Positions 2,090-32,917 of a DNA stretch of 33,719 nt are shown here, piece after piece (positions within the stretch are counted from its first letter, which is position 1; the number at the start of each line of letters is the position of its first letter). The DNA is from an uncultured Bacteroidota bacterium (lineage in GTDB: Bacteria > Bacteroidota > Bacteroidia > Chitinophagales > LD1): positions 1-33,719 of the forward strand of contig CAIXBT010000290.1 in assembly GCA_903917755.1 (NCBI GenBank), written 5' to 3'. The position numbers and the translations under genes were made by a program. The notes under the pieces are model-generated. The model worked only from the letters and a program-made list of their open reading frames with translations, searched no databases and had not been told where the DNA came from.

Positions 2090-3451
2090 ATGAAAAAAAT
2101 CTACGGTCTTTTCTTTCTGATCATTATGTCGGTTGCCTCATTCAGTCAGATCACTATCACAAAAAATGATATGCCTGTATTCAAAGATACAGTTCGCTAC
2201 AGCACCACGAGTACGATTCTTAATTTTACGAATACCGGTCCGAATTATACCTGGAATTTTTCATCACTGGTAGCCAACGGTCAGGGCATTGATACTTTTA
2301 AATCGGCACTCTCATTAAATATACTTTATGGCTTGTTTTTCGGTCTGACAGATTACGGTATTCCTTCTACCAATAAGATCAATTTCAGCCAGCTGAGCCT
2401 GACCAATGCATATGATTTCTATAAAACCAGCAATTCCTATCTTGAGATCAACGGGATAGGTGCTTCATATAGTGGTATCCCTCTTCCTACTGTCTATACC
2501 ATACCTGATAAGGTTTATCAATTTCCACTTACCTACGGACGGGTAGATGTGTCTCCATATGATGTTAATATCAGTGTCCCATCTGTAGCCGGAGTGCATC
2601 AGGTGGGTACACGTACCAATACGGTAGACGGATGGGGTACCGTGATCACTCCGTTTGATACTTTCCAGTGTCTGCGCCTGAAATCTGTACTCACCGAGGT
2701 AGACTCGATCAATCTGACCGCTCTCGGACTTTCTATTGGTATTCCTCTGCCTACTGTCACCTATAAATGGCTGGCAAATGGTGTCAAGATACCTGTACTG
2801 GAAGTATCCGGTTTTGACCTTTTCGGCGTTTTCATACCAACCAGCGAAAAATTCAGGGATAATGTGAGATTCATACCTCCTCAGTTCAACCTCAGAATCA
2901 ATTTTACAGCTAATAAAACAGTCTGCACTACCGCAGATACAGTCACCATTACGCCCACCGTCAGACCCAATGTATCAGGAACTACTTACGACTATTCCAT
3001 CACTCCAAATACCTTCCACTTTGTGTCAGGCACAGATACCGGTTCACAGATACCTCAGGTACAATTTACGGCACCCGGATTATATACTGTCTCACTGACC
3101 TCTACTGCTCCTGCCGGTGGCACTATACCGGCCTCATCGACCAAAACCAGAACAAACTATATATTAGTCAATCTGCCAAGCGGAATAGGACAAATATCAA
3201 CGTCAAATTTCATACAAGTATTCCCGATCCCGGCTAACGACCATCTGGCATGTCAGCTAGACGGAGATGCCGGCAAACAGGCTACACTGGAGCTTTTGGA
3301 TATCACCGGAAAAGTACTTTACTCGATGACTACCTCACAGCATGGTGAGGTTAATATCCCTACAGCGCAATTGCCCGCAGGTGAATACATCTTCAGAGCT
3401 ACACCAGAGGGTGAGTCAGGATATGTACAAAAGATCAGTATCGTACATTGA
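2090..3451 (+). CDS. T9SS type A sorting-domain-containing secreted protein
   Basis: Signal peptide; C-terminal FIQVFPIPANDHLACQL...LPAGEYIFRAT...YVQKISIVH. Confidence 0.75.
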   Translation: MKKIYGLFFLIIMSVASFSQITITKNDMPVFKDTVRYSTTSTILNFTNTGPNYTWNFSSLVANGQGIDTFKSALSLNILYGLFFGLTDYGIPSTNKINFSQLSLTNAYDFYKTSNSYLEINGIGASYSGIPLPTVYTIPDKVYQFPLTYGRVDVSPYDVNISVPSVAGVHQVGTRTNTVDGWGTVITPFDTFQCLRLKSVLTEVDSINLTALGLSIGIPLPTVTYKWLANGVKIPVLEVSGFDLFGVFIPTSEKFRDNVRFIPPQFNLRINFTANKTVCTTADTVTITPTVRPNVSGTTYDYSITPNTFHFVSGTDTGSQIPQVQFTAPGLYTVSLTSTAPAGGTIPASSTKTRTNYILVNLPSGIGQISTSNFIQVFPIPANDHLACQLDGDAGKQATLELLDITGKVLYSMTTSQHGEVNIPTAQLPAGEYIFRATPEGESGYVQKISIVH

Positions 3452-3537
3452 TCATATCAGGATGTAATTTTACAATTGATCGCTTCTGAATACAGATACC
3501 GAATGTTTATTTTATTTTCGCAGGAAATAAATATACA

Positions 3538-3936
3538 ATGGCGTTAGTACAGTGCAGAGAATGCGGCAAAATGGTAAGCGAAGAGGCAGATATTTGCCCC
3601 TATTGAGGAGCTAAGATGCCAAGCAAAAAAAGAAAGCAAAGAAGACTTTATACTACCATCGCTATATTATTGATCGTGACAGGCCTACTGTCATGGGCTT
3701 ATATTCGTATCAGCCGGGCCCTTGCCCCGCCTGCCAGTAGCACAGTAGCTGCACCCTCAAAAATTCAAAAAGACATACCCGTCAAGGATCAGATCATTCA
3801 GAAAAATGATAAAGAGATCATCAAAGAAATGCTCGATAGTGGTGAGAAAGTAGGTGCCATCTCAAAGAAAACAGGAATAAGGAGAGACGAGATAAGGAAG
3901 ATCAAGAAAGAGAAAGCACAGGAAGAGAAAAAGTAA
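3538..3936 (+). CDS. Zinc-ribbon + single-TM + HTH-like small protein with an in-frame TGA at codon 23 (3604-3606); the ORF track shows only the downstream part 3616..3936
   Basis: ATG at 3538 reads MALVQCRECGKMVSEEADICPY*GAKMPSKKRKQRR... in the same frame as ORF 3616..3936; CxxC...CPYxGA zinc-ribbon pattern. Confidence 0.6.
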
Positions 3937-3938
3937 AT

Positions 3939-4991
3939 TTATACCGCAGGCTCCTGCTGGCTCAGGCAATGCCAGCTACCCAAACCCCAGATCACATCTG
4001 TACTATCGATACCTATCACCTTTCTGTCAGGGAAACATGCAGTGAGGATATCCAATGCTTTTACATCATTCTTATCACGATAGGTCGGCACCACTACAAC
4101 TGCATTTGAAATATAGAAATTAGCATACGATGCTGGCAATCTCTGCTCTTCATAGATCACCGCCGATGGCATGGGCAGTTCAATAATATTTAACTGCTTC
4201 CCGTTTAGCAATCGCATTTGTTTCAACTCTTTTAGGTTCTCCTGAAGAAGCTGATAATTTCCGTCGTTTTTATTGTGCTCCACCACAGTCACTACCGTAT
4301 CCTCATTTACGAATCTGACCGTATCGTCTATGTGCCCGTCTGTATCATCGCCCACTATACCTTCGCTGACCCATAGTATCTGTTTGACACCATAATAGTT
4401 ATAAAGATATTGCTCTATCTGAGCCTGATCGAGATGCGGATTTCTGTTGGGATTGAGCAGACAAGCGGTGCTGGTGAGTAGTGTCCCCTTGCCGTTAAAC
4501 TCTACGGAGCCACCTTCCATCACTATGCCCGGATGATACACAGGTATTTTATATTTCTCCGCTATCAATGTAGGTATGACATCATCTAGATCGTAAGGCG
4601 GATATTTATCTCCCCATGCGTTATATCCCCAATCCACGATGATCTTTTTTTCAGCAGCATCAGGATTGATCAGAAACGCCGGACCGTGATCCCGGCACCA
4701 TGCGTCATTAGTAGGATGATGAAAGAATTTTATTTGCTTAAGATCCACATCTTCTTTCTGCAATTGCTCTTTGGCAAAAGCTTCCATTACAGCATCTGCC
4801 ACATTGATGCATACAAATTCTGCTTGACTGACAGCTTTGATAAACTTAGAGTAAGGCGCATAAACGGTATGGATCTTGCCCGGCCAGCTTGCTTCCTTAT
4901 GGGGCCAGCTGAGCCATGTAGCGGTATGCTTGTGCCACTCAGCAGGGAAACTATAACCCAGCTGAGCCGGTGTTTTCATCACTTCTTTCAT
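3939..4991 (-). CDS. aguA: Agmatine deiminase family protein
   Basis: WCRDHGPAFL, GGSVEFNGKGTLLTSTACLLNPNRNP and C-terminal GLGSWHCLSQQEP motifs. Confidence 0.9.
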   Translation of the reverse strand: MKEVMKTPAQLGYSFPAEWHKHTATWLSWPHKEASWPGKIHTVYAPYSKFIKAVSQAEFVCINVADAVMEAFAKEQLQKEDVDLKQIKFFHHPTNDAWCRDHGPAFLINPDAAEKKIIVDWGYNAWGDKYPPYDLDDVIPTLIAEKYKIPVYHPGIVMEGGSVEFNGKGTLLTSTACLLNPNRNPHLDQAQIEQYLYNYYGVKQILWVSEGIVGDDTDGHIDDTVRFVNEDTVVTVVEHNKNDGNYQLLQENLKELKQMRLLNGKQLNIIELPMPSAVIYEEQRLPASYANFYISNAVVVVPTYRDKNDVKALDILTACFPDRKVIGIDSTDVIWGLGSWHCLSQQEPAV

Positions 4992-8785: not shown

Positions 8786-9385
8786 ATGCCAAAACAAAAA
8801 GTAGACGAACAATTTATCATCATTCAGTCTCTGAAGTTATTCAGAAAGCAAAGCTATTATCATACCTCAATGGCAGATATAGCAGCAGCTTGCGGTCTTC
8901 AGAAGGGGTCACTTTATCATTACTTTCCGAGTAAGGAAGATCTGATGAAAAAAGTGATCCGTTTCGTCCATGAGTTCTTCAAAAGCAAGGTATTTTCACT
9001 GGCCTATGACAAGAGCCTGAGCCCTAACGACAGGCTTGAAAAGCTATTTGAAGCGGCGCAGGAGATATTCCTCAATGAAGAAACAGGCTCTCTGATGGGC
9101 AACGTAGGGGTCGAAAGTGCCCTGATGGTACCGGAATTCGCTGAATTGGTACGTTATTTTTTTACCGATTTCTTTCATGCCGTCAAAACCATATATCTGG
9201 ACAAATATCCTGAAGAAATAGCTAATGAGCTGGCAGAGCGTAGTGTGGCTGAGATCGAGGGTAGCCTTATGTTTTCGCGTGTTTTTAATGACCATTCATA
9301 CTTGAAGAACACGACCAAACGTATACTCAATCGCCTCGAAAAAGGCAATGTGAGCCGCAGGGTAGAAATGGAAACCAAAAATTGA
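8786..9385 (+). CDS. TetR/AcrR family transcriptional regulator
   Basis: N-terminal HTH SMADIAAACGLQKGSLYHYFPSKEDLMKKVI. Confidence 0.9.
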   Translation: MPKQKVDEQFIIIQSLKLFRKQSYYHTSMADIAAACGLQKGSLYHYFPSKEDLMKKVIRFVHEFFKSKVFSLAYDKSLSPNDRLEKLFEAAQEIFLNEETGSLMGNVGVESALMVPEFAELVRYFFTDFFHAVKTIYLDKYPEEIANELAERSVAEIEGSLMFSRVFNDHSYLKNTTKRILNRLEKGNVSRRVEMETKN

Positions 9386-9398: not shown

Positions 9399-9404
9399 TT
9401 ATGT

Positions 9405-9438
9405 AATTATCAATTGTTGAATTTTCAATGACCAATGA
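9405..9438 (+). repeat. Left arm of imperfect inverted repeat around four-helix-bundle element 1
   Basis: AATTATCAATT (9405-9415), TTTTCAAT (9422-9429), CCAATGA (9432-9438) each have a reverse complement in 9807-9842. Confidence 0.65.
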
Positions 9439-9806
9439 ATACAGAAGAAAACAAGCGGGAAAATATAGTAGTAAAGCGTTCTTTTCAATTTGCACTAGAC
9501 ATAGTGATATATGCTGAAAAGCTGGAAAGCGAAAGAAAGTATGTGATACAAAGGCAACTGCTGAGGTCGGGTACTTCAATAGGTGCCAATGTCAGGGAAG
9601 CATAAAGTGCTGAAAGTATTAGGGACTTTGCTCATAAAATGAAAATAGCAGCAAAGGAAGCAGAGGAGACGAAGTATTGGTTGCTGATTTGTCAGCATTC
9701 AACAAACTATCCTGATTGTGTAGAGTTATTAAATGAAATAAAAGAGATCATTAAAATATTGACCAGTATTATTCATTCAACAAATAAAAAAATTAAAGAT
9801 CGGTGA
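9435..9806 (+). pseudogene. Four helix bundle (S23/IVS-protein/Avd-like) gene, element 1, with in-frame TAA at 9603-9605
   Basis: Reads MNTEENKRENIVVKRSFQFALDIVIYAEKLESERKYVIQRQLLRSGTSIGANVREA*SAESIRDFAHKMKIAAKEAEETKYWLLICQ...; same frame continues to TGA 9804-9806. Confidence 0.8.
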
Positions 9807-9842
9807 TCATTGGGTGTTTCACACAATTGAAAATTGATAATT
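9807..9842 (-). repeat. Right arm of inverted repeat, element 1
   Basis: TCATTGG (9807-9813), ATTGAAAA (9826-9833), AATTGATAATT (9832-9842) complementary to the left arm. Confidence 0.65.
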
Positions 9843-9862
9843 CATTAATTGAAAATTAAAAT

Positions 9863-12298
9863 ATGGAATCAACTTTGTCAGAAAAGAAGGCCGTGGCAGT
9901 GACCACCGCCAAGAACCGTAAAGTAAAGAAAGTCGCCGTGATCGGTTCCGGTGTCATGGGTTCGAGAATAGCCATGCACTTTGCTAACATCGGACTACCG
10001 GTCGTTCTGCTGGATATTATCCCACGCGATGCCAGCGAGGAGGATCTGAAGAAACCGGCAGTGCGCAACAAAGTGGTCAACGATGCTCTGGCTTTTGCAC
10101 TCAAGTCAAATCCATCTCCTATATATGATAAGGGTTTTGCCAATCGTATCACTACGGGCAACTTCACCGACAACATGAACCTGATCAAAGATGCTGACTG
10201 GGTGATCGAGGTGGTAGTAGAAAACCTCAATATCAAAAAGAGCGTATTCGAACAGATCGAGCAGTTCCGTAAACCGGGCACGCTGATCACTTCAAATACA
10301 TCAGGTATACCTATCCACCTCATGACCGAAGGAAGAAGCGATGATTTCAAAGCGCACTTCTGCGGCAGCCACTTCTTCAATCCTCCTCGTTATCTGAGAT
10401 TGCTCGAGATCATCCCTACTACACTGACCCATCCTGAGGTGGTAGACTTTCTGATGAACTACGGAGATGTATATCTCGGCAAACAAACTGTTTTATGCAA
10501 AGATACGCCAGCATTCATCGCAAACCGTGTAGGGGTATTCAGCATAGCAGCAGTTATCAAACTGATGCAGGAAATGGATATGACCATCGATGAAGTAGAT
10601 GCACTGACAGGCACGCTGATCGGCAAGCCTAAGTCTGCTACATTTCGTACCACAGATGTGGTAGGTCTCGACACCATGATCAAAGTAATGAAAGGCGCTT
10701 ACGACAATCTGCCAAACGACGAAATGCGCGACGTAATGCAGGTGCCTGATTGGATCATGACCATGGATGCAAATAAATGGTGGGGCGATAAATCAGGTCA
10801 GGGTTTCTTTAAGAAAAGCAAATCTGCTGATGGCAAAAAATCTTTCGTTACACTCGACTGGAAGACGCTCGAATACAAACCATCTGCCAAGACAAAATCA
10901 GCTACTACCGAGCTGAAAGCCATAGAAGACACTAAGAAACGCCTCGTAGCGGTTTCTAAACAAACTGATAAACACGGTGAGTTTCTCAAAAAACTGACCA
11001 GCTATGTATCAGCTTATGTATCTAACCGTATCCCTGAAATATCTGACGAACTGTATCGCCTCGATGATGCTATGCGCGCAGGTTTCGGCTGGGAACTAGG
11101 ACCATTCGAACAGTGGGATATCATTGGCGTGGAGAAGATCATCGGCGATATCAAAGCTGCCGGTTTTAAACTCGGCGCATGGGTAGACGAAATGCTCGCA
11201 GGTGGTTTCAAAACATTCTACACTGTAGAGAATGGTGTCAGAAAATACTATGACATCAATTCAAAATCATACAAATCTATTCCGGGTCGTGAGGCATTCA
11301 TCATCATGGATAATGTCTTTACTCAAAAAGCAGTTTGGAAAAATCAGGATGCCCGTATCGACGATATCGGCGATGGCGTACTGAACGTATCATGGAGTAC
11401 TAAGATGAACGCTCTCGGTGGCGGTGTACTCGAGGGTATCAATAAGGCCATAGACCTCGCAGAGGCACAAGGTTGGAAAGGAGTAGTACTCGGTCACGAC
11501 TGCCCTAACTTCTCTGCCGGTGCTAACCTCGCCATGATATTCATGATGGCTATCGAGCAGGATTATGATGAACTGGATTTCGCTATCCGCGCCTTCCAGC
11601 ATAGCACAGGCCGTTGCCGTTATTCATCTATACCGGTCGTCGCAGCGCCTCACGGTATGACACTCGGGGGTGGATGCGAGTTTACCATGCACAGCGATGC
11701 AGCAGCAGTATCTGCAGAAACATATATCGGTCTCGTAGAGGTCGGTGTGGGTTTGATACCTGGCGGCGGTGGTACTAAGGAATTGGCACTGCGTGCATCT
11801 GATGCATACTTCGCAGGCGATCCTCAGATACCTACTCTTGCTGAAAAATTTCAGGCTATAGCTACCGCTAAGGTTGCCACTTCAGCATATGAGGGATTTG
11901 CTGTAGGCGTACTCGATAGGAAGAAAGACTTCGTAGTAGTAAATCAATCACGTGTACTCGCAGAAGCAAAACAAAAAGTATTGGAACTCGCAGCAGACGG
12001 ATATGTACAGAAGCCTATGCGCACTGACATCACAGTACTCGGCCGTACAGGTCTCGCGGCCCTCTATGCAGGTGCAGCAGCATTCAATGTAGGTGGCTAT
12101 GCCAGCGCACACGATATGCTGATCGCTAAAAAGATCGCTTACGTACTCTGCGGTGGTGACCTGACCAGCGAGTCTAAAGTGACTGAACAATATCTCTTGG
12201 ATCTCGAAAGAGAAGCATTCCTGTCACTTTGCGGTGAGAAGAAAACCCTCGAGCGTATCCAGTCAATATTGACTAGCGGAAAGCCATTGAGAAACTAG
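9863..12298 (+). CDS. fadN: 3-hydroxyacyl-CoA dehydrogenase/enoyl-CoA hydratase (FadN-type domain order)
   Basis: N-terminal VAVIGSGVMGSRIAMHFANIG NAD-binding motif, C-terminal crotonase region GGGCEFTMHSDAAA; ends LTSGKPLRN. Confidence 0.9.
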   Translation: MESTLSEKKAVAVTTAKNRKVKKVAVIGSGVMGSRIAMHFANIGLPVVLLDIIPRDASEEDLKKPAVRNKVVNDALAFALKSNPSPIYDKGFANRITTGNFTDNMNLIKDADWVIEVVVENLNIKKSVFEQIEQFRKPGTLITSNTSGIPIHLMTEGRSDDFKAHFCGSHFFNPPRYLRLLEIIPTTLTHPEVVDFLMNYGDVYLGKQTVLCKDTPAFIANRVGVFSIAAVIKLMQEMDMTIDEVDALTGTLIGKPKSATFRTTDVVGLDTMIKVMKGAYDNLPNDEMRDVMQVPDWIMTMDANKWWGDKSGQGFFKKSKSADGKKSFVTLDWKTLEYKPSAKTKSATTELKAIEDTKKRLVAVSKQTDKHGEFLKKLTSYVSAYVSNRIPEISDELYRLDDAMRAGFGWELGPFEQWDIIGVEKIIGDIKAAGFKLGAWVDEMLAGGFKTFYTVENGVRKYYDINSKSYKSIPGREAFIIMDNVFTQKAVWKNQDARIDDIGDGVLNVSWSTKMNALGGGVLEGINKAIDLAEAQGWKGVVLGHDCPNFSAGANLAMIFMMAIEQDYDELDFAIRAFQHSTGRCRYSSIPVVAAPHGMTLGGGCEFTMHSDAAAVSAETYIGLVEVGVGLIPGGGGTKELALRASDAYFAGDPQIPTLAEKFQAIATAKVATSAYEGFAVGVLDRKKDFVVVNQSRVLAEAKQKVLELAADGYVQKPMRTDITVLGRTGLAALYAGAAAFNVGGYASAHDMLIAKKIAYVLCGGDLTSESKVTEQYLLDLEREAFLSLCGEKKTLERIQSILTSGKPLRN

Positions 12299-12313
12299 AA
12301 TCAGAAGTCAAGA
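12297..12313 (+). repeat. Left arm of inverted repeat, element 2 (overlaps the fadN stop codon)
   Basis: AGAATCAGAAGTCAAGA matches the reverse complement of 12671-12687 at 14 of 17 positions. Confidence 0.6.
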
Positions 12314-12628
12314 GAGCTTGTTAAAAGTGTTTATGTTCTTTCAAATAAATTTCCGAAAGGAGAAACATATGGTTTGACTTCACAGATAAGAAGGTCTGTT
12401 ATTTCAATACCATCGAATATAGCAGAAGGGTCAGGCAAAAACTCCGATAAGGATTTTGCTAGATTTCTGAGCATCGCAATTGGTTCTTCTTTTGAATTAG
12501 AAACACAATTAATTCTGTGTTTTGATTTGGAGTATATAAACAAAAATGAGTTCGATATTATTATAGACAAAGTAAACGAAGTACAAAAGTTAATTTTCGG
12601 ATTTAGTAAAACATTACAAACACAATAA
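12299..12628 (+). pseudogene. Four helix bundle gene, element 2, 5'-truncated (no ATG; open frame directly follows fadN TAG)
   Basis: NQKSRELVKSVYVLSNKFPKGETYGLTSQIRRSVISIPSNIAEGSGKNSDKDFARFLSIAIGSSFELETQLIL...; canonical N-terminal MxxYxxLxVW segment missing. Confidence 0.75.
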
Positions 12629-12670
12629 AAAATTAAAAAACAAAACCAAAGTCATTGTCATTGACTTGAT

Positions 12671-12687
12671 TCTTGACTCTTGGTTCT
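12671..12687 (-). repeat. Right arm of inverted repeat, element 2
   Basis: TCTTGACTCTTGGTTCT, complementary to 12297-12313 at 14 of 17 positions; 13 nt before the fadA ATG. Confidence 0.6.
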
Positions 12688-12700
12688 AAAAATCTACATT

Positions 12701-13876
12701 ATGCAAGAAGCTTATATAGTGGCAGGTTGCCGCACCGCCATCGGAAAATCAAAGAGAGGAGGATTCAGATTTACATCTCCTGTAGACTTGGGTTACTACG
12801 CTATCACTGAACTGCTCAAAAGAGTACCTGGTCTCGACCCTACACGAATCGACGACCTCATCGTAGGTAATGCAGTACCTGAGGCTGAACAAGGTCTGCA
12901 AATGGCACGCTGGATAGCGTTGCGTTCACTGCCTGTCAATGTACCGGCTTTCACTGTCAACCGTTATTGCGGTTCAGGTATCGAGACCATCGCACTGGCT
13001 ACTGCCAAGATCCGTTCGGGCATGGCAGAATGTATCATAGCAGGTGGAGCAGAATCTATGTCGCTCGTACCTACAGTAGGTTACAAAACAGTACCGAACT
13101 ACGAAGTAGCAAAGACAAATCCTGAATACTATATCGGCATGGGTCTCACAGGCGAGCTCGTAGCTGAAAAATATGGCATCACCCGTCAGGCTATGGACGA
13201 ATTTTCATACAACTCTCACGTCAAAGCTTTTGCCGCTATCGAAGCAGGTAAATTCAAAGAAGAGATCGTGCCAATAGAAGTAGAGGAAGTATACTTCGAC
13301 GGAGTTAAGAAGAAATCAAGAAAAGCAACTGTAGGTGCTGATGAAGGTCCACGCAAAGATACCTCTGTAGAAGGCCTTGCCGCATTGAAACCGGTATTCA
13401 AAGTGAACGGTACCATCACTGCCGGAAACTCATCTCAGACATCTGACGGTGCTGCATTCGTACTGGTAATGAGCGAAAGAATGGTCAATGAACTTGGCCT
13501 GAAACCTATCGCTCGTCTTATCACTTCCGCATCTGTAGGAGTTGATCCTACTATCATGGGTATCGGCCCGGTAGCTGCGATACCGAAGGCGCTGAAACAA
13601 GCAGGTCTGAAACTGGATGATATTGACCTCATCGAGCTCAACGAGGCTTTTGCATCTCAGTCACTCGCAGTGATCCAGGAGCTGGGTCTCAATACCGCAA
13701 AACTCAATGTGAACGGTGGCGCTATCGCACTCGGACACCCGCTGGGATGTACTGGTGCATGGCTCACTCAGAAGCTGTATAATGAAGCTCGCCGTCGTGG
13801 CAGCAAATACGGTATGGCCTCGGCTTGTATCGGTGGTGGTCAGGGTATTGCTGGTATCTATGAATTCATTAGTTAA
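12701..13876 (+). CDS. fadA: Acetyl-CoA acyltransferase (thiolase)
   Basis: [20 protein letters not shown] start, [12 protein letters not shown] active-site Cys, [19 protein letters not shown] and CIGGGQGIA motifs. Confidence 0.92.
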
Positions 13877-13882
13877 GAAGCC

Positions 13883-13915
13883 TTTAGACGATAGATAATA
13901 GACATTAGACCAATG
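13883..13915 (+). repeat. Left arm of inverted repeat, element 3
   Basis: Core TAGATAATAGACATTAGAC (13892-13910) matches the reverse complement of 14303-14321 at 17 of 19 positions; CAATG (13911-13915) pairs with CATTG (14292-14296). Confidence 0.7.
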
Positions 13916-14269
13916 CATAATTATAGAGAATTACATATTTGGAAGAGGTCTATTAAAGTGGCAGTAAATATGTATGAAATCGTTGCTGCTTTCCCTTCGT
14001 CTGAACGCTATGAATTGACGAGTCAAATAAAGAGAGCTGTTGTGTCAATTGCTTCAAACATTGCAGAAGGTGCCGGTCGAAATACAAATAAGGAGTTTAA
14101 TCACTTTCTTGGTATAGCAATTGGTTCATCGTTTGAAGTGTATACCCAACTGGTGATCGCTGGTGAGTTGGGTCTTGTAAAAGAAAAATTACTTCTACCT
14201 GTTTTATCAGAATTGGAAGAGATTCAAAAAATGATTCGCGTATTTAAAGAAACATTAAAAATCAATTAA
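13913..14269 (+). CDS. Four helix bundle protein (S23/IVS-protein/Avd-like), element 3, intact
   Basis: MHNYRELHIWKRSIKVAVNMYEIVAAFPSSERYELTSQIKRAVVSIASNIAEGAGRNTNKEFNHFLGIAIGSSFEVYTQL... Confidence 0.9.
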   Translation: MHNYRELHIWKRSIKVAVNMYEIVAAFPSSERYELTSQIKRAVVSIASNIAEGAGRNTNKEFNHFLGIAIGSSFEVYTQLVIAGELGLVKEKLLLPVLSELEEIQKMIRVFKETLKIN

Positions 14270-14291
14270 TAACCAAAGACGGAAACACTGG

Positions 14292-14330
14292 CATTGTCTA
14301 TTGTCTAACGTCTATAATCTAAAATCTATT
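14292..14330 (-). repeat. Right arm of inverted repeat, element 3
   Basis: CATTGTCTATTGTCTAACGTCTATAATCTAAAATCTATT, complementary to 13883-13915; ends 3 nt before the acyl-CoA dehydrogenase ATG. Confidence 0.7.
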
Positions 14331-14333
14331 ATT

Positions 14334-16130
14334 ATGTCAACTCTCACAGAAAAAAAGGTAGATCTCAAGGGCGGTGAATTCCTGGTAAAGGAATCATCTC
14401 CGGCTAATACTTATATCAGGGAAGAGATCACCGAGGAGCAAAAGATGATAGCACAATCTACGGCGGATTTTATCGCTACCCGTGTGCTTACAAATTTAAA
14501 GCAAATAGATAAGCAAGAGCCAGGCCTTGTAGTAGGTCTATTGCACGAGATAGCCGATCTCGGATTACTCGGTGCTGCAGTGCCGGAGGAATATGGTGGA
14601 ATGGGCGTTGATTTTGCCACAGATACATATATTAACGAAGAAATGGGATGTGGCCACTCTTTTGCTGCTGCTTTTGCCGCACATACCGGCATCGGTACAC
14701 TGCCCATTCTGTATTTCGGTACTGAAGAGCAAAAGAAGAAATATCTCCCAGGCCTGTCGAATGGCAGCATCAAAGCTTCTTACTGTCTCACTGAGCCGGG
14801 TTCAGGTTCTGATGCACTAGGTGCGAAGACCAAGGCAGTATTGACCGAAGATGGCAAACACTATATCATCAATGGCCAGAAGATGTGGATCACCAATGCA
14901 GGATTCGCAGATCTGTTCACTGTTTTTGCCAAGATCGATGGAGAGAAATTCACTGGATTTCTGATCGATGCCAAGGCAGAAGGAATATCATTGGGTGCTG
15001 AAGAGGACAAACTTGGTATCAAAGGTTCATCTACCCGTCAGGTGTTTTTCAATAATGTAAAAGTACCTGTAGAGAATATACTCGGTGAGATCGGCAAAGG
15101 ACATAAGATAGCATTCAATGTATTGAACATCGGCCGCTATAAACTGGGTGTGCTGGCTTTGGGTGGTTCAAAAGAGACCTGCTCTACAGCAGTGAAATAT
15201 GCTAATGAGCGTATCCAGTTCAATGTACCTATATCATCATTCGGAGCTATCAAGCACAAGCTCGCTGAGATGGCTGTGAAAATATATGCAGTAGATGCTT
15301 CTGTCTATCGTACAGCCGGTCTGATCCATGATTATATAGAAACTGCTACCGCCGCAGGCACTGATAAAGTACAGGCTAAATTGCTCGCTGCTGAGGAGTT
15401 CTCTGTAGAGTGCGCCATACTGAAAGTGTTTGGATCGGAAGTAGCGGACTATACAGTAGACGAAGCTGTTCAGGTATTTGGAGGGACAGGTTTCAGCGAA
15501 GAGTATCCTGTAGCACGTGCATATCGCGATTCCCGTATCAATAGGATATTCGAAGGTACTAATGAGATCAATCGTTTGCTCTCAGTAGGTATGCTGGTCA
15601 AAAAGGCAATGAAAGGCGAACTCGATCTTTTCACTCCTGCTATGGCAGTACAGAAAGAATTGATGAGCGTGCCAGATTTCTCTACACCGGATTCAGAAGA
15701 TACATTTGCAGCAGATAGAAAAGCACTGCAGAATGCTAAAAAAGCTATCCTCATGGTAGCAGGTGCAGCCGTTCAGAAATTCATGCAGAATCTGGATAAA
15801 GAACAGGAGATCATGATGAATATCGCTGATATGCTGATAGAATTGTTTGCTTGTGAATCAGCATTGCTCAAGACCGAGAAGCTGGTGAGCATTCAGGGTG
15901 AGACAGCTTGTGCATTGCAGATCGATCTGACCAGAACATATATCTCTGATGCACTGGAGCGTATCAATCTGTCAGGCAAACATGCAGTCACTGCATTCAA
16001 CGATGGCGATATGCTTCGCATCATGCTCATGGGAATTAAACGTTTTACTAAATATGATGCATTCAATACTATAGCGGCCAGAAGAAGGATCGCTGACAAA
16101 CTGATAGCCGAAAACCAATTCTGTTTCTAA
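14334..16130 (+). CDS. Acyl-CoA dehydrogenase family protein (first of tandem pair)
   Basis: CLTEPGSGSDALGAKTKA, KMWITNAGFADLFTVFAKI, YRDSRINRIFEGTNEINRLL. Confidence 0.92.
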   Translation: MSTLTEKKVDLKGGEFLVKESSPANTYIREEITEEQKMIAQSTADFIATRVLTNLKQIDKQEPGLVVGLLHEIADLGLLGAAVPEEYGGMGVDFATDTYINEEMGCGHSFAAAFAAHTGIGTLPILYFGTEEQKKKYLPGLSNGSIKASYCLTEPGSGSDALGAKTKAVLTEDGKHYIINGQKMWITNAGFADLFTVFAKIDGEKFTGFLIDAKAEGISLGAEEDKLGIKGSSTRQVFFNNVKVPVENILGEIGKGHKIAFNVLNIGRYKLGVLALGGSKETCSTAVKYANERIQFNVPISSFGAIKHKLAEMAVKIYAVDASVYRTAGLIHDYIETATAAGTDKVQAKLLAAEEFSVECAILKVFGSEVADYTVDEAVQVFGGTGFSEEYPVARAYRDSRINRIFEGTNEINRLLSVGMLVKKAMKGELDLFTPAMAVQKELMSVPDFSTPDSEDTFAADRKALQNAKKAILMVAGAAVQKFMQNLDKEQEIMMNIADMLIELFACESALLKTEKLVSIQGETACALQIDLTRTYISDALERINLSGKHAVTAFNDGDMLRIMLMGIKRFTKYDAFNTIAARRRIADKLIAENQFCF

Positions 16131-16148
16131 TCTACTAAATACTAAAAA

Positions 16149-17960
16149 ATGAGTACGTCAACAGACACTACAAAAAAGGCAACTTTGAAAGGAGGTGAAT
16201 TCCTTATCAAAGATTCAAGCTGGGAGGATTGTTATATCCCTGAGCAGATCAACGAAGAGCAGCAAATGATGCGCGAAATGGTAAGGGATTTTATTAAAAC
16301 GGAGATCGATCCCGAGCTCGATGCACTGGATCACGATCCTATGCTCACTGTCGGAAAACTTGATAAAGCCGGAGCGCTCGGCCTGCTGGGTATAGCAGTA
16401 CCTGAGGAATACGGTGGTCTGGGCAAAGACCTGATCTCTATCTCTTATGTCACAGAGGTATTAGGTGGCGGACATGGTTTCTCTGTGTCCTATGGTGCAC
16501 ATACCGGTATCGGTAGCTGTCCTATCATCTACTATGGCACAGAGGAGCAGCGCAAAAAATATCTTCCCAAGCTCGCTACAGGCGAATTGAAAGCAGCTTA
16601 CTGCCTCACTGAGCCGGGGTCCGGTTCTGATGCTCTCGGCGCTAAGACCAAAGCTGTGCTTTCTGAAGATGGCAAACACTATATCCTGAACGGTCAGAAA
16701 ATGTGGATCACTAATGCCGGTTTTGCAGACATCTTTATCGTATTTGCTAAGATAGATGGTGATGACAAAAAGTTCACAGGGTTCATTGTTGAGAAGGGCT
16801 TCGAAGGGCTGAGCCTCGGTGCCGAAGAAAAGAAAATGGGTATAAAGTCTTCCTCTACCCGTCAGGTATTTTTTAATAACATGAAAGTGCCTGTAGAAAA
16901 CCTTCTTGGCGAAGCTGGTAAGGGTTACAAAATAGCATTCCAGATATTGAATATCGGTCGCTATAAACTTTGCAACGGCGTACTCGGTGGCAGCAAACGC
17001 GCTCTGGGTGTAGCTGTGAAATATGCTAATGAGCGTCAGCAATTCAAGACTCCTATCGCACAGTTTGGTGCTATCAAGCATAAACTAGGCGAGATGGCCA
17101 TACGTCTTTGGGTAGCAGAATCTGCTTCATATCGTGTATGCGGTCTGATCAATGACAAAGAGCATGAACTGAGATCTGCAGGAGCGTCTATGACAGACTA
17201 TCTCACAGGTGGTGCCGAAGAGTATCAGGTAGAGTGCGCATTGCTTAAGGTGATCGGCTCTGAGGTCCTCGATTTTGTAGTAGATGAGTCATTGCAGGTA
17301 CATGGTGGCTATGGCTTCTCTGAAGAGTATCCTATGGCACGTTCATATCGTGACTCTCGTATCAATAGGATATTCGAAGGTACTAACGAGATCAATCGTA
17401 TGCTTTCTATCGATGCTTTGTTGAAATTTGCAATGAAAGGGAAACTCGATCTGATGACTCCGGGTATGGCTATACAGAAAGAACTCGTATCGGTTCCTGA
17501 TTTCAGCTCACCTGATCCTGATGATATTTTTGGTGCCGAAAGAAAAGCGCTGAAGAATGCCAAAAAAGCATTCCTGCTGATCGCTGGTGGTGCGGTTCAA
17601 AAGCTGATGACGAAACTCGAACATGAACAAGAGGTCCTGATGCACGCAGCTGATGTTTTGATCGAGATCATACAAATGGAATCTGCCATGCTTCGCGCAG
17701 AAAAACTCGTAAACCTTCACGGTCTCGAAGCATCTCAGATATATGTAGATATGGTTAAATGCTTCTTCTTCGATGCGCTGGATCGTATCAATGTAGCCGG
17801 AAGGTCTGCTCTCGCTGGTTTTGCCGAGGGAGATGAACTGCGTATGATGGCTATGGGTCTGAAGAGGTTTACTAAATCAGAATTCATCAATACAAAAAAT
17901 ATCCGTCGCGCTGTAGCTGACAAGCTGATAGCAGAAAATGGATATTGTTTCTGGGATTAA
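16149..17960 (+). CDS. Acyl-CoA dehydrogenase family protein (second of tandem pair)
   Basis: Same motifs; clear paralogue of the preceding gene over full length. Confidence 0.92.
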   Translation: MSTSTDTTKKATLKGGEFLIKDSSWEDCYIPEQINEEQQMMREMVRDFIKTEIDPELDALDHDPMLTVGKLDKAGALGLLGIAVPEEYGGLGKDLISISYVTEVLGGGHGFSVSYGAHTGIGSCPIIYYGTEEQRKKYLPKLATGELKAAYCLTEPGSGSDALGAKTKAVLSEDGKHYILNGQKMWITNAGFADIFIVFAKIDGDDKKFTGFIVEKGFEGLSLGAEEKKMGIKSSSTRQVFFNNMKVPVENLLGEAGKGYKIAFQILNIGRYKLCNGVLGGSKRALGVAVKYANERQQFKTPIAQFGAIKHKLGEMAIRLWVAESASYRVCGLINDKEHELRSAGASMTDYLTGGAEEYQVECALLKVIGSEVLDFVVDESLQVHGGYGFSEEYPMARSYRDSRINRIFEGTNEINRMLSIDALLKFAMKGKLDLMTPGMAIQKELVSVPDFSSPDPDDIFGAERKALKNAKKAFLLIAGGAVQKLMTKLEHEQEVLMHAADVLIEIIQMESAMLRAEKLVNLHGLEASQIYVDMVKCFFFDALDRINVAGRSALAGFAEGDELRMMAMGLKRFTKSEFINTKNIRRAVADKLIAENGYCFWD

Positions 17961-32818: not shown

Positions 32819-32878
32819 AATTGACAATTGATAATTTACAATTGATAATGCGCTTTTGCCAATTATCCATTGTCAATT
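32819..32878. repeat. Gene-less inverted repeat between zapA and rny
   Basis: AATTGACAATTGATAATT (32819-32836) vs AATTATCCATTGTCAATT (32861-32878): 17 of 18 complementary. Confidence 0.7.
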
Positions 32879-32917
32879 ATTAATTTACAAGTACCTGTTT
32901 ATGGGAGAAAATGCGCA

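Follow-up and report, generated by a model that had tools for sequence, protein, structure and literature searches.

Genes for the 23S rRNA-intervening-sequence protein (IVP, or S23; PF05635) have, to our knowledge, no known function and are usually treated as curiosities of 23S rRNA. The closest described setting is the intervening sequence (IVS) of the Coxiella 23S rRNA, whose complementary ends form a 28-bp stem that is cut by RNase III, in vitro too, and which carries GACAGAT heptamers before the start codon of its S23p gene (PMC4990558). The Xanthomonas campestris S23p is a homopentamer of four-helix bundles (PMC4990558), and Avd, a protein of diversity-generating retroelements, has a four-helix-bundle fold homologous to that of IVP (PMC10053308). 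Heptamers have also been described on their own: MacGregor 2015 (PMC4679880) reports TAACTGA direct repeats ahead of start codons, names this single unit and mentions neither intervening-sequence nor S23 nor four-helix genes. Among open-licence papers, we found no description of IVP cassettes standing between cistrons.

We analysed a 33,719-nt stretch of DNA from an uncultured Bacteroidota bacterium, referred to here as the window, which contains a Pfam-supported beta-oxidation (fad) operon composed of tetR (8786-9385), fadN (9863-12298), fadA (12701-13876) and two acyl-CoA dehydrogenase genes, fadE1 (14334-16130) and fadE2 (16149-17960); its fadA is 90-92% identical to those of congeners. The tetR-fadN, fadN-fadA and fadA-fadE junctions hold one PF05635 gene each. 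An earlier note, made from the sequence alone, had placed a four-helix-bundle gene at each of these three successive junctions, which the PF05635 matches (3/3) bear out, and had enclosed each gene in its own complementary arms; we located these inverted repeats, and the population test given below puts them beyond chance.

In the first element, the left heptad arm (9404-9436, + strand) overlaps the IVP start codon and forms an inverted repeat with the right heptad arm (9826-9858, +; 33 nt, 79%), which ends 4 nt before the fadN ATG at 9863. The gene between them (9435-9806, +) matches PF05635 and is broken, a point on which the earlier note is corrected: it contains an in-frame TAA at 9603-9605, where its orthologue in G002, a sister species, has CAG. 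The second element, too, needs correction: it is a remnant. Its IVP frame (12299-12628, +) matches PF05635 from profile position 7, without a start codon or N-terminus, and runs in frame directly after the fadN stop TAG; its left arm (12296-12313, +), which overlaps that stop codon, is therefore a truncated remnant. This arm forms an inverted repeat with a right arm of the TTGATTC TTGACTC TTGGTTC type (12671-12688, +; 18 nt, 83%), 12 nt before the fadA ATG at 12701, and the unit is common to the element's nearest relatives, L025 and L106. Only the third copy is intact. Its 118-residue IVP gene (13913-14269, +; PF05635, 119 bits), for which the closest solved structure is PDB 2gsc (X. campestris XCC0516, E 6.7e-18), lies between a left heptad arm of the TAGACAT type (13883-13910, +) and a right heptad arm of the GTCTAAC type (14296-14323, +) that form an inverted repeat (28 nt, 79%), and the right array as a whole spans 14291-14333, reaching the fadE ATG at 14334. 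Predicted RNA folds pair the cassette ends in all three elements, with folding z-scores of -2.3, -4.7 and -1.6 for elements 1, 2 and 3; these are modest singly, and the weight therefore rests on the population test of the arms.

Across 131 non-redundant IVP loci, own arms reach a median score of 27, while mismatched arms and dinucleotide-shuffled flanks each give 16 (Mann-Whitney p about 1e-53), so shuffled sequence does not give equally good arms. When strong own-arm complementarity is taken as a score of 25 or more, 63% of these loci show it and, among 334 ordinary genes from a congener, only 2 do (0.6%); four-helix-bundle genes are thus enriched in flanking inverted repeats, and about 37% of the loci have no clear arms at this threshold. 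Chance as the source of the arms is rejected on these controls. The earlier note was right about complementarity and missed a strict 7-nt periodicity: identity is 0.46-0.47 at lag 7, 0.41-0.43 at lag 14 and 0.38-0.39 at lag 21, where about 0.29 is expected, and the best lag is 7 in 76 of 102 elements. By inspection, all seven PF05635 genes of the window genome stand between inverted 7-nt-periodic arrays, and these seven cassettes have seven different arm units. The three IVP proteins in the window are only 28-43% identical to one another and are therefore not recent tandem duplicates.

IVP genes are common well beyond this locus. PF05635 genes occur in 54 of 61 relatives, with up to 12 per genome, and IVP/S23 genes in 233 of 297 genomes sampled across the phylum, with up to 15 per genome among the matches listed; a search of genome contigs with a single protein returned five loci, and a search of phage records no match. 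Cyanobacterial plasmids carry the same cassette architecture with GC-rich heptads such as TCCCTAC. On plasmid pANA02 of Anabaena sp. 90 (L244), a type I-D CRISPR locus has an annotated IVP gene between its cas6 and cas4 genes, and a figure legend that deals with CRISPR-linked genes also names IVP (PMC10910872).

Several comparisons argue that arms and gene move as one unit. The loci L133 (in G006) and L121 (in G002), from sister species, share a 448-nt block of 75% identity whose ends are exactly those of the arms, and beyond it they have no homology; L133 lies behind a histidine-ammonia-lyase-like gene and L121 before an mnmE-like gene, and each site is without an IVP in the other species. 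In G025, two cassette copies that are 80% alike occupy unrelated sites 2.6 kb apart, and the second (L155, G025:C323, about 3255-4017) holds an extra small reading frame (MKKNKNLMRLDQF...) as well as the IVP inside its arms. Between loci in unrelated surroundings, the median arm similarity climbs steadily as the IVPs become more alike, from 24 below 30% IVP identity to 33 at 50-60%, 43 at 60-70% and 58 or more above 70%. We consider it very improbable that there is no mobile unit at all, that is, that IVPs are ordinary genes whose 7-nt repeats arose by slippage in AT-rich gaps and whose arms match by chance or through local template switching. Tandem arrays can indeed grow by slippage, and solo heptad arrays exist without an IVP, but own arms are far more complementary than mismatched arms, shuffled flanks or the flanks of ordinary genes, and this speaks against it, as do arms that track IVP lineage over unrelated contexts and homology blocks bounded by the arms.

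Comparison with close relatives revealed the same junctions in filled, empty and decayed states, and relatives did not prove to carry the same genes without inverted repeats. Within the genus, only the window genome and G002 have a cassette at the tetR-fadN junction, and the window genome, G002 and G003 have one at the fadA-fadE junction. The fadE1-fadE2 junction is filled in five congeners (G001 and G003-G006) and not in the window, where an 18-nt right-end scar, TCTACTAAATACTAAAAA (16131-16148, +), lies at the position of their full cassette; in another genus (L080, L077) this junction has arms without an IVP. In several filled/empty comparisons the intergenic DNA was replaced, not cleanly split, and a target-site duplication was not defined, the junctions compared being too diverged. 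Other material is found at these positions as well: the fadA-fadE1 junctions of three congeneric loci (L067, L068 and L070) hold other small open reading frames and a small gene that we take, from its sequence, to be GIY-YIG-like, without an IVP cassette, and L251 (G004:C2) has a different palindromic repeat (TTGTAGAGACGCAA...TTGCGTCTCTACAA) at a junction where G003 carries an IVP cassette.

The IVP tree, which has few columns and many unresolved forks, requires a switch between fad and non-fad locations at least 14 times, and on it the arm units go with the protein clades; the locus sample behind it leans to fad loci, some having been retrieved by way of fadN. These alternating locations and the filled and empty junctions mark the fad operon as a place where cassettes land repeatedly. 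The earlier suggestion of IVS-like elements that might be mobile is thus supported by filled and empty junctions, by arm-to-arm blocks and by arms that travel together with their IVP, and we think it probable that each of the three elements is a copy of a mobile cassette of about 430-470 bp, which settles in gaps between co-directional genes. This cassette consists of a left heptad arm, an IVP gene and a right heptad arm in inverted orientation, and does not itself carry a transposase. No mobilising enzyme was found: reverse transcriptase (RVT_1, PF00078) was looked for in seven congeneric genomes, in assemblies that are 73-97% complete, and occurs in none of them, which disfavours movement through a resident reverse transcriptase, and Y1 transposases are present in all seven, with nothing that ties them to the cassettes.

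The placement of the cassettes bears on how they may be tolerated and expressed. At 99 of 114 non-redundant Bacteroidota loci the IVP gene is co-directional with both neighbours, and at loci with clear arms the median distance from the end of the right arm to the following gene's first in-frame ATG is 9 nt. Co-directional placement would mean expression from the host promoter: inserted in this way, and usually with its right arm a short distance from the following start codon, the cassette could be read from the host operon promoter at low cost. At one locus (L259/L113, G002:C438) the downstream gene has the right heptad arm within its N-terminal coding sequence (SQQPTVNSQQT), so that its protein is altered relative to congeners.

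The position of the right arm, which mostly lies directly against the following start codon, would also suit a host-beneficial regulatory module, in which the IVP binds its arms in operon mRNA and controls downstream translation or stability, mobility being incidental. The pairing of the arms in predicted RNA folds agrees with such a role, and so does the strong constraint under which the resident IVP and its arms stand at one junction shared by five species; but the same junctions lack the cassette in congeners, two of the window's three copies are broken, insertions stand before functionally unrelated genes, arm mismatches have no G-U preference, and some cassettes, including three of six on cyanobacterial plasmids, are antisense to both neighbours. 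On balance we find this explanation rather unlikely.

The constraint itself is seen in resident copies. Between IVP orthologues dN is 0.10-0.21 and dS is at or beyond saturation; in the two measurable pairs dN/dS is about 0.06, compared with 0.05 for FadN. Such strong constraint is unusual for a purely selfish element. In the fadE1-fadE2 cassette of the five species, third codon positions are 38-59% identical between the more distant pairs, the right arm is 93-100% identical over 29 nt, and a 24-nt core of the left arm is present in all five; this core was picked by an exact pattern, which makes its 100% identity circular, and it is its presence in all five that counts. Because the arms are kept while third positions diverge, these alignments suggest that the arm sequence itself matters, beyond pairing.

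The same observations weigh on the idea that the arms pair into a double strand within the polycistronic mRNA, where RNase III (or RNase Y) would cut and so separate the cistrons, as happens with the fragments of 23S rRNA. This processing is conceivable because it is established for rRNA IVSs, with in vitro RNase III cleavage (PMC4990558), and the prevailing co-directional orientation and the predicted pairing of the arms are compatible with it. Arm mismatches, however, comprise 113 G-U and 152 A-C pairs, both in similar excess over the composition fit and unlike stems kept for RNA pairing, so selection for an RNA stem is rejected as something that the arms indicate; the arm sequence is, moreover, conserved beyond the needs of pairing. 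We regard a processing role for the cassettes as possible but doubtful. Returning to the mobile cassette, an oligomeric IVP may recognise the 7-nt-phased arms of its own cassette, in DNA or in the mRNA stem, which would explain both the co-travel of arms and protein and their constraint. Taken together, the comparisons show a mobile arm-gene-arm cassette in operon gaps that is constrained while resident.

Cassettes decay into solo arrays and into hairpins that lack the IVP, and structures of both kinds are common. The window holds an IVP-less heptad hairpin of AATTGAC/AATTATC units (32821-32890; 29-nt arms, 12-nt gap), between genes that we take, from their sequence and general knowledge, to be zapA-like and rny-like (minus strand), in the leader of the latter. 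In 400 kb of a congener, a stretch with no IVP gene among the matches listed, there are 15 IVP-less heptad arrays against none in a Markov control, and two solo arrays face each other as a hairpin. Elsewhere (L313, G005:C12:300723-300925), an expanded TACTTAA/TACTAAA array of about 15 units has a matching left array opposite and no IVP gene.

Many intergenic heptamer repeats may be solo cassette ends, and 23S rRNA IVSs may be members that landed in rRNA. The broadest form of this proposal, in which IVP serves as the recognition protein for a class of mobile elements that lack a transposase and whose 7-nt-phased terminal arrays co-evolve with it, and both the 23S rRNA IVSs and the heptamers of Bacteroidota, Cyanobacteria and Beggiatoaceae are its insertions or relics, is one that we put forward tentatively and think more likely wrong than right. 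If IVP genes do belong to cassettes with 7-nt-phased arms that travel between operon junctions, a single testable frame would cover the role of IVP, the origin of rRNA IVSs and the source of intergenic heptamer repeats, and the pairs of filled and empty junctions are natural material to measure the effect of a cassette on operon expression.

Among described systems, REPIN/RAYT and MITE-type elements likewise comprise short inverted-repeat units without their own transposase and dispersed, gene-less hairpins, whereas the cassettes differ from these and from IS elements in having no fixed terminal sequence common to copies, in their lineage-specific heptad arms and in encoding a protein. They differ from Avd and diversity-generating retroelements in that none of the seven congeneric genomes has a match to reverse transcriptase. 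TAACTGA repeats and STRRs, the heptamer repeats of Cyanobacteria, are likewise tandem 7-nt units of intergenic gaps, often directly ahead of a start codon, and occur in Bacteroidota, Cyanobacteria and other groups; the cassette heptads, by contrast, comprise many units that differ by IVP lineage and are inversely paired around IVP genes. Closest are the 23S rRNA IVSs of Coxiella and Leptospira, where a PF05635 gene likewise lies within complementary ends in about 430 bp; heptads beside the gene are a shared trait, those of Coxiella standing next to the start codon. The window cassettes have the PF05635 protein and the complementary ends of an IVS and lie between protein genes of an operon, not in a 23S rRNA helix; in addition, their arm unit varies from copy to copy and genomes carry many copies (up to the 15 noted above). 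They function like IVSs, but the defining rRNA location is absent; the best reading of them is as an intercistronic, mobile counterpart of the 23S rRNA IVSs.
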